From Vibrio sp. HB236076 (GTDB lineage: Bacteria > Pseudomonadota > Gammaproteobacteria > Enterobacterales > Vibrionaceae), in contig NZ_CP162602.1 of assembly GCF_040957575.1 (NCBI RefSeq), positions 620,001 to 684,000 of the forward strand: 64,000 nt of DNA, written 5' to 3'. The notes beneath the pieces were generated by a model, which saw only the letters and a program-made list of their open reading frames with translations, ran no database searches and was not told where the DNA came from. This document shows, piece after piece, positions 26,683 to 27,853 of the stretch. The position numbers were made by a program, and so were the translations under genes. How positions within the stretch are numbered: position 1 is the stretch's first letter; each line of letters starts with the position of its first letter.

Positions 26683-26716
26683 ACGAGATTTGTTTGACTC
26701 ACCGTCCAAATCTCGT
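26683..26716. repeat. Inverted repeat upstream of the HTH initiator-like gene
   Basis: ACGAGATTTG (26683-26692) and CAAATCTCGT (26707-26716) are perfect inverted copies 14 bases apart. A third near copy, CAAATCACGTCAAA at 27177-27190 inside the following gene, matches 26707-26720 at 13 of 14 positions. This may be an operator for autoregulation. Confidence 0.6.
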
Positions 26717-26796
26717 CAAACCACTCAAAAGCCATCGCGACAAATTGCCCACCTTGAACAACACTTATCAAGTCCCCCAAATAGTGAGGTAAAACA

Positions 26797-27639
26797 ATGT
26801 CTAATCCACTGTTAAGAAAAGTGTTTTGCATCGAAATTGGCACGGGTATGAGTAAGCTCGTAATGCTGAAACTGGCCGATAACGCCAATGGCAACGGCGT
26901 GTGCTTTCCCTCTCATCGTTACTTAGCGGCTAAGTGCGAAATCTCAGAGCGCTCGGTGCGCAATCAGCTAACTTATCTTGTTAAGCATGGTTGGATAGAA
27001 ATTCAAAACCGCACCAATGGCAAAGGTGGTCAGCGCAGCAATTTTTACTTTTTGAACGAGCAGAAAATCGAGCAGGCCTATCTCGAACAAATGCATCAAA
27101 GTGATGAACCCAGCCAGGCCAACAGCGTTGTTAAAAGCCTTGATTTACCGAGCAAGAAAAGCCTCGATTTACCAGCCAAATCACGTCAAAGTGTTGATGC
27201 ACAATCTGCTCAATGGACTGGGGCAGAGCGCTCTGACAATGGCCTTAAAACCGCTTCAAATCCCAGTCAATCTCAGCAAGTCTCAAACCGACAAACGTCG
27301 ACTTATCCACAAGGCGGTGGCACCGGTTACCGGTATGTCAATGAAACTGAGCGAGTAAGCAGCGGCACGGTTTGCCACACCTCATATGATACTGAGTCAG
27401 TAAAAGCAGGAACCGATTGCCGGGGGGAGGCGGCAAGGGTTGCCGACTACGCGGGCGGCACCAGTTGCCGACATAATCTTTTAAAAAGAAATAAAAAAAC
27501 TCTGTCGGCAAATCTTGCCACCCTACAAGCGCCCCCGGTGTTTGATGACCAACCCTTTAGTGAGCTAAGAGCGCAAGTGAACCTGGAACAATTTGCCCTC
27601 TGCAGGCGAGCGTTGGAATTAGCGATGAATCGACAGTGA
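26797..27639 (+). CDS. HTH protein resembling a replication initiator, carrying an embedded origin-like region
   Basis: This 280-residue protein has an N-terminal helix-turn-helix (HTH_36-like) domain: MSKLVMLKLADNANGNGVCF, PSHRYLAAKCEISERSVRNQ, then a wing up to residue 88. HTH_36-like domains are typical of phage and plasmid replication proteins such as the O-type initiators. Residues 100-250 are a Ser/Gln/Thr-rich linker, followed by a short C-terminal helix. The DNA for the linker holds a DnaA box and six palindromic repeats, as in lambda O. No DnaC/P-like loader, integrase or other phage gene lies next to it. GAGG precedes the start by nine bases. Replication function is inferred. Confidence 0.7.
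   Translation: MSNPLLRKVFCIEIGTGMSKLVMLKLADNANGNGVCFPSHRYLAAKCEISERSVRNQLTYLVKHGWIEIQNRTNGKGGQRSNFYFLNEQKIEQAYLEQMHQSDEPSQANSVVKSLDLPSKKSLDLPAKSRQSVDAQSAQWTGAERSDNGLKTASNPSQSQQVSNRQTSTYPQGGGTGYRYVNETERVSSGTVCHTSYDTESVKAGTDCRGEAARVADYAGGTSCRHNLLKRNKKTLSANLATLQAPPVFDDQPFSELRAQVNLEQFALCRRALELAMNRQ
27133..27173 (+). repeat. Direct repeat of 17 bases, 24 bases apart
   Basis: AAAAGCCTTGATTTACC (27133-27149) and AAAAGCCTCGATTTACC (27157-27173) match at 16 of 17 positions. The period is eight codons, so it also appears in the protein as a repeated KSLDLP. Confidence 0.75.
27303..27520. other. Candidate replication origin inside the HTH gene
   Basis: From left to right there is a perfect DnaA box (TTATCCACA, 27303-27311), five iteron-like palindromes (27318-27470), an AT-rich stretch (27472-27504, about six G/C in 33), and a sixth iteron at 27506-27520. 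This is the standard set of parts of an iteron-type origin and mirrors the lambda O gene. Activity is not shown. Confidence 0.55.
27318..27520. repeat. Six 15-bp iteron-like palindromes, consensus CGGCAM-NNN-TTGCCG
   Basis: Copies start at 27318, 27363, 27408, 27431, 27456 and 27506; spacings are 45, 45, 23, 25 and 50. Copy 4 is a perfect palindrome and the others have one to three changes. Four copies lie in one codon frame and two in another, so a protein repeat does not explain them. Confidence 0.8.
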
Positions 27640-27710
27640 AGGATCATGTACATCACGGTGTAACTACAAGCATACCTAGCCGACACATTTAATGCGTTAG
27701 GCCGCTCAAT

Positions 27711-27725
27711 TATTCAGGCTGAATA
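27711..27725. promoter_or_regulatory. Dyad TATTCAG-G-CTGAATA upstream of the GNAT gene
   Basis: This is a perfect 15-base palindrome 129 bases upstream of the GNAT start, in the gap after the HTH gene. It could be an operator; the protein that would bind is unknown. Confidence 0.4.
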
Positions 27726-27853
27726 TGGCCAAAGAAAAGTGAATGGCAGCATGGAAATCGATGAGAAAAAATCCCTGGTTGTTCTGTCAATATTCATTAA
27801 ATAGCGTTAAGTTGGTATCACTACATTAAAAAAACAAACCACAGGATAGGGAA

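Follow-up and report, generated by a model that had tools for sequence, protein, structure and literature searches.

A probable phage lambda O-type replication initiator gene with a putative origin inside it, standing among ordinary chromosomal genes of a Vibrio

Introduction

The O genes of lambda and Stx phages carry iterons and an AT-rich tract in mid-gene, as set out in the part of PMC7466680 consulted. A lambdoid origin can also persist on a bacterial chromosome, since oriJ of the defective Rac prophage of E. coli is described as active in the excerpt seen of PMC3945230, which also states that no Rac replication was seen following lambda infection. PICMI, small chromosomal elements of the Vibrionaceae, are introduced in the portion seen of PMC10803314. 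Here we describe a gene of the HTH_36 type in a 64,000-nucleotide stretch (64 kb, hereafter the window) of Vibrio sp. HB236076 (contig NZ_CP162602.1, positions 620,001 to 684,000), which is probably a replication initiator of the phage lambda O type with its own putative origin in the stretch that codes for the linker of the protein.

The window gene resembles lambda O with ori-lambda in being an initiator gene, O-like by PHROG, with internal iterons and an AT-rich tract. Unlike lambda O, it has no P-type loader or prophage with it, its putative origin includes a DnaA box, its iterons lie on both sides of the AT element, and it exists in three chromosomal copies. O-like genes of IMG/VR viral contigs have the same iteron class (GGCA-N5-TGCC), likewise within the gene, and often AT-rich DNA behind it (31/51), but no internal DnaA box (51/51), and their iterons mostly start nearer the helix-turn-helix (HTH) part. 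oriJ lies within a recognisable prophage, whereas the window gene is alone. Iterons, a DnaA box and AT-rich DNA occur together in iteron plasmids and in the origin of Vibrio chromosome 2 (RctB/ori2), from which the window differs in that its initiator is O-like and its putative origin lies inside the initiator gene. The PICI origin, in contrast, sits behind rep, and none of the PICMI core genes (integrase, AlpA, primase) was seen near the window copy; a satellite, which had been suggested from the sequence alone, is not supported. The architecture is thus already known, and it is the setting that is unusual, i.e., a solitary gene, three copies, a DnaA box and a link to a capsule-associated module. 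In the literature searched (titles and starts of abstracts), no O-type origin with a DnaA box was named.

Results

The N-terminus encoded by the window gene is an O-like winged helix by both PHROG and Pfam (Table 1), and DnaA box, iterons and AT-rich DNA are found together inside the gene, as in iteron plasmid origins. An initial inspection without database searches (the sequence-only reading) had noted a perfect DnaA box, an AT-rich stretch and six palindromes of the form CGGCAM-NNN-TTGCCG, and had likened the layout to that of lambda O. The box, TTATCCACA, and the AT-rich stretch are where they had been placed, and the likeness is borne out by the O-like profile matches and the O-type iterons. 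Six palindrome sites are also present, but only those at 27431 and 27456 match the 15-base consensus exactly; the core used here is the 13-base GGCAM-N4-TGCC, to which a seventh site at 27585 has one mismatch. Six sites fall within 202 bp, whereas 200 dinucleotide shuffles of the 64 kb never gave more than four, and the gene holds seven, whereas 2000 codon shuffles averaged 0.36 and never exceeded 4. Their codon frames (0, 0, 0, 2, 0 and 2) agree with the earlier observation of four repeats in one frame and two in another. The DnaA-box pattern alone shows no enrichment in the window (5 found versus 8.6 expected). The AT-rich element holds the most AT-rich 31-mer of the gene (87%), and a role in unwinding is predicted for it.

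Table 1. Features of the window gene, its putative origin and the related chromosomal module. Positions refer to the window unless a stretch handle (L) is given; L035 is the stretch around copy 3.
Feature	Position	Strand	Evidence or remark
Upstream region plus gene, unit common to copy 2	26689..27641	+	blastn: 953 bp, 89.5% DNA identity
O-like initiator gene, HTH_36, 280 aa	26797..27639	+	Pfam HTH_36 E 2.2e-12; PHROG replication initiation O-like E 8.1e-25, 1e-24
DnaA box TTATCCACA	27303..27311	+	exact in all three copies
Iteron 1, one mismatch to core	27319..27331	.	palindrome match
Iteron 2, exact core	27364..27376	.	palindrome match
Iteron 3, one mismatch to core	27409..27421	.	palindrome match
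Iteron 4, exact core	27432..27444	.	palindrome match
Iteron 5, exact core	27457..27469	.	palindrome match
AT-rich element, likely unwinding site	27471..27503	+	also in relatives' O-like genes, other reading frame
Iteron 6, exact core, past AT-rich element	27507..27519	.	palindrome match
C-terminal tail	27535..27636	+	seen only in the genome's three copies among O-like proteins compared
Small membrane protein, Amidase_2, unknown gene, divergent from O-like gene	L434 6335-9644; L435 5964-9388; L035 8848-12679		

By comparison with phage genes, the window palindromes are O-type iterons and candidate binding sites. Phage relatives were collected by protein (best 80 of 574 loci, giving 77 distinct genes; Vibrio phages make up 66 of the 150 phage records with a match), and 64 of the 77 carry four to six 14-bp repeats at nucleotides 240-480, behind the HTH part; the same number, 64/77, top all 40 codon shuffles for internal repeats. 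Viral contigs were also scanned blindly, with no use of the protein, for two GGCAM-N4-TGCC sites 5-14 bp apart, which gave at least 120 stretches, and O-like coding was judged by a hidden Markov model built from 79 N-terminal sequences. An O-like protein is encoded in 51 of 120 scanned stretches (40 distinct N-termini at 90% identity), with the palindrome pair inside that frame in 51/51, whereas a control palindrome of the same composition gave 1/120 O-like and none inside the frame, and a second control 0/120. In the 51 genes, the first iteron starts past the HTH part, at nucleotide 245-540 (median 293); in 31 of them, the gene's most AT-rich 40 bp starts no more than 40 nucleotides past the last iteron. 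This lambda O-type arrangement is also that of the window gene, whose internal iterons follow the HTH part and adjoin an AT-rich tract. None of the 51 scan genes has a DnaA box inside the gene (two have a related box upstream), and the exact TTATCCACA was found in none of the 77 phage O genes (two have a looser match within the HTH part). The exact AT element occurs in eight stretches of the viral contigs, none of which is O-like by tblastn, and no DNA match to the window segment was found in phages or plasmids. A P-type or DnaB-type gene lies directly downstream of the O-like gene in five of seven annotated records examined, namely a P-type gene in Aggregatibacter phage S1249 and in Pasteurella, Plesiomonas and Shewanella records and a DnaB-type helicase in Vibrio phage V039C; in Vibrio phage D65 and SfV the gene at this place is unnamed.

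The genome consists of two contigs (3.88 Mb) and contains two further copies of the window gene (copy 1). Copy 2 lies ~161 kb off on the same contig, with 91% protein identity to the window copy, and copy 3 is on the large contig, with 47%. The unit shared by copies 1 and 2 comprises the gene plus ~108 bp upstream; for copy 3, blastn against the window returns only 101 bp (27426-27526, 89%), covering iterons and AT element. The frames of all three copies are free of stops, and all three have iterons, AT element and DnaA box, with TTATCCACA upstream of exact GGCA-N5-TGCC sites (four in the window copy, five in copy 2, four in copy 3). The automatic alignment shifts the copy 3 box out of register, and the box was therefore sought separately. 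The description of the gene as an orphan thus suits the window copy, but it is one of three, and copy 3 adjoins lysis-type genes. A DNA search of 227 same-genus genomes gave a long match in the genome itself only, and no close relatives were found in the genome contig collection. The C-terminal tail has no match in the other O-like proteins compared or in plasmids; its one phage match is at chance level (E 7).

Selection seems to act on the DNA of the origin segment, as the sequence-only reading had argued. Between the window copy and copy 2, the synonymous rate (dS) is 0.018 in the origin segment, while HTH part, linker and tail reach 0.146, 0.50 and 0.30, respectively, and a residue shared by both is encoded by the same codon in 69/70 cases in the origin segment versus 144/171 elsewhere (p 7e-4). 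For the window copy and copy 3, a shared residue has the same codon in 23/23 cases in the core versus 38/85 elsewhere, with a p of 3e-7 that is optimistic because the core was picked from the alignment. The aligned copies differ at 2/34 positions of the palindrome half-sites and at 7/19 positions of the centres (gapped positions excluded).

The second line of evidence for constraint on the DNA comes from relatives on other chromosomes. In 19 distinct full-length genes of relatives (of 30 rows, truncated genes excluded), synonymous identity reaches 0.93-0.94 in one linker stretch, over the AT element. Other 15-codon windows (>1000 comparisons) give 0.55-0.90, the sole one above 0.85 touching that linker stretch, and one sparse, gapped 15-codon window gives 0.92. 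The core of the conserved stretch is CACACATAATCTTTCATAAAGAACATAAAACAG, and the window AT element is its best match in the 64 kb on both strands (18/20 bases, next 15). Scored in 43 distinct genes, the genome's three copies included, CACACATAATCTTTCATAAAGAACATAAAACAG is matched at 20/20 in 18 genes, at 19 in two, at 18 in three (window, copy 2 and one more) and at 17 in three, copy 3 among them. Among genes scoring at least 17/20, the relatives have the element in frame 1 and the three copies have it in frame 2; for each of these genes, none of 60 codon shuffles matched it. The same DNA thus encodes different peptides, which is the strongest sign of constraint on the DNA.

These results bear on the rival view that the gene is a dead relic, i.e., a prophage replication gene whose origin merely looks conserved through recent duplication or gene conversion. 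In its favour, the window copy is partnerless, the GC skew gives no origin signature, and copies 1 and 2 share 953 bp at 89.5% identity. However, a relic sits poorly with three frames that have no stops and with an AT element conserved across genomes in a different frame. Nonsynonymous divergence (dN) between the window copy and copy 2 is 0.048 in the origin segment, where dS is 0.018; constraint at the DNA level fits this better than gene conversion, because gene conversion should lower dN too. We consider a relic unlikely.

O-like genes are not restricted to this genome, an O-like match being found in 88/329 genomes of the family. In a survey of the best-scoring loci from 40 other genomes, a relative of the copy 3 amidase adjoins the O-like gene in 35 (union tallied by hand); the remaining five have O genes without amidase, and those of them in the tree group with phage genes. 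The related chromosomes that keep this module are probably Vibrio. The contexts of 17 O-like genes, all chosen because the amidase was known to be present, show the O-like gene divergent from the amidase and a small membrane protein (phrog_9646), in the same order in 17/17; the membrane protein is holin-like in our reading, though not by any family assignment. The capsule genes wza, wzb and wzc lie within the 16-kb stretch in 9/17 contexts. Copy 3 is itself adjoined by relatives of the amidase (49%) and the membrane protein (62%), and its wider neighbourhood holds polysaccharide-like genes (by eye, with one RmlB-type match). No relatives of the 208-aa neighbour of copy 3 turned up in phages or among 147 other same-genus genomes. 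In the literature searched, including the parts seen of PMC7829505 and PMC3130711, we found the capsule-locus module nowhere described.

Discussion

We think it likely that the window gene is an O-type initiator with its own origin and, jointly with this, a solitary paralogue of the O-like gene that is kept beside an amidase, a membrane protein and often a capsule locus. The identity of the gene, its iteron class, the conservation at the DNA level and the three copies are established by computation. The window copy would then be a stray, chromosome-borne O-type initiator with a putative origin among ordinary genes. The ten neighbours between 22349 and 32001 belong to ordinary chromosomal families (ABC transporter, DUF2938, MerR, GNAT, EamA, AsnC, GST, LysR), with no match at E 0.001 to phage replication, loader or integrase families and no P-type loader or helicase gene adjoining. 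A PF00589 tyrosine integrase was not found within ~45 kb of any copy (other recombinases were not searched), the nearest match lying ~45 kb from copy 2 and farther from copies 1 and 3. This agrees with the earlier statement that no loader, integrase or other phage gene accompanies the gene. A plasmid-type Rep protein is not indicated, as the best families of the window gene are phage O-like and a RepC profile match is far below cut-off.

From this layout we infer how the origin would work. Inside the gene the order is DnaA box, palindromic iterons, AT-rich unwinding element (by prediction) and one further iteron. The winged-helix N-terminus would bind each iteron as a dimer, and the assembled complex would melt the AT element, where the helicase would be loaded, in the way in which lambda O works with P. 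Because no P-type loader or DnaB is coded nearby, unlike in phages, which often encode one of their own, we propose that host DnaA at the box would help deliver DnaB. The copies are probably silent or weak in normal growth, or fire conditionally, because the cumulative GC skew (4-kb steps) climbs across the window without a turn at the 27 kb site.

Several observations weigh against this interpretation. The DnaA box encodes Tyr-Pro-Gln in all three copies, and it may therefore be conserved at the protein level, in what are two lineages only. The first exact iteron starts at nucleotide 480-567 in the genome's copies, later than in most phages, and the iteron spacing is wider and less regular. 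The AT element is absent from most truncated and phage-type genes and from some module genes (in L021, L031 and L033), and other genes match it weakly, at 15-16 of 20. No DnaA box was found in the 29 same-genus O-like loci, five of them phage-type, and no regular iteron array was found in the module genes. The full layout is therefore seen only in the genome's copies and, minus the box, in phages. In a tree of the HTH part, the three copies group together at 91/79, separately from module and phage genes, which is not strong support, and no wza, wzb or wzc match was found near copy 3 in the stretches examined. The sequence-only reading had asked whether homologues keep the repeats and the box along with the protein, and the answer is divided. 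Paralogues keep iterons, AT element and box, and phage relatives keep internal iterons, but there is no box in phage or same-genus genes, and the latter have no clear iteron array, though they mostly keep the AT element.

The cassette could instead be an active accessory origin that fires conditionally and gives chromosome 2 an extra replication start. The origin looks complete, with a DnaA box and an intact gene in three copies, and active oriJ of the Rac prophage (PMC3945230, in the part seen) offers a precedent, but there is no loader nearby and no skew turn, and firing would have to be tightly controlled. Activity of this kind seems quite improbable to us. A connection to the known chromosome 2 origin was dropped, since the 25-bp AT-rich match in one of 227 genomes (E 2.5e-4) is taken as chance. 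In that match, 24/25 bases of the AT element recur at L037 1501-1525 in another same-genus genome, beside a gene that we take to be RctB-like, at what is presumably a chromosome 2 origin; this is probably chance.

Another possibility is interference with phages, in which chromosomal O plus iterons would trap or divert the replication complex of an O-type phage during infection. It is a live rival because plasmids that carry lambda iterons together with oop inhibit lambda replication, according to the part seen of PMC3349717, and two GmrSD-type genes adjoin copy 2. The lambda effect, however, required oop RNA, which was not looked for here, and no phage record carrying the window DNA was found, so that we give this reading only a slender chance. 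We regard as similarly far-fetched a proposal built on the module, which would over-replicate its own neighbourhood from the internal origin, lyse a few cells and free the amplified capsule DNA, which naturally competent neighbours would take up; equally doubtful is its corollary that the module's origin-initiator half, with the DnaA box replacing the loader, would have spread to chromosome 2 as the window copy and copy 2. If true, such a module would be a capsid-free counterpart of gene transfer agents and would help explain capsule swapping without an integrase. In V. parahaemolyticus O3:K6, the capsule region changes fast despite the lack of an integrase or transposon, as far as the excerpt of PMC10734457 shows. 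Pure autoregulation, with the palindromes as operators of the HTH protein in its own gene and no replication role, is the least probable alternative, since an HTH protein with palindromic sites would suit it, but these sites lie 500-700 nucleotides into the gene, beside an AT element and a DnaA box, in a phage-O-like layout.

On the O-type initiator-plus-origin reading, a bacterial chromosome may keep a phage-type origin outside a prophage, with its DNA under selection and in several copies; the reading also provides a concrete candidate for an accessory origin. In addition, the module kept across many species couples a replication gene with a lysis-type gene, a combination for which we found no described role.

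Flanking sequences and minor observations

Searches of the flanks for an empty site gave short matches only for the upstream flank and, for the downstream GNAT gene, one 72% match in one genome. An integron cassette or transposon was rejected, as no terminal repeats or attC-type ends are visible by eye on the 953-bp unit. A common end near 27705-27745 was also considered and dropped, because the similar stretches of three other genomes are parts of coding genes unrelated to one another; a fourth similar stretch, ~4 kb behind copy 2, is without explanation. Behind the window gene, 27685-27804 is a short open stretch with SIIQAEYGQRKVNG, whose DNA resembles parts of unrelated genes elsewhere and which is probably a coding remnant or chance.

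The two GmrSD-type genes lie directly 3' of copy 2 (L034 4178-7518), and upstream of this copy (L034 9147-10157) is a gene for a 336-aa protein with no Pfam match and a weak match to an uncharacterised PHROG. Around copy 3 there are long repeats, both tandem and dispersed (L035 388-1692, 7579-8905). By eye, the repeats near copies 2 and 3 are not attC-like; we take them to be REP-like, and a frame near copy 3 (L035 16602-16919) is presumably of the REP-type transposase kind. Upstream of the window gene, an inverted repeat, GTTTGAC / GTCAAAC (26692-26698 and 26715-26721), stands where the unit shared with copy 2 begins and is a possible operator.
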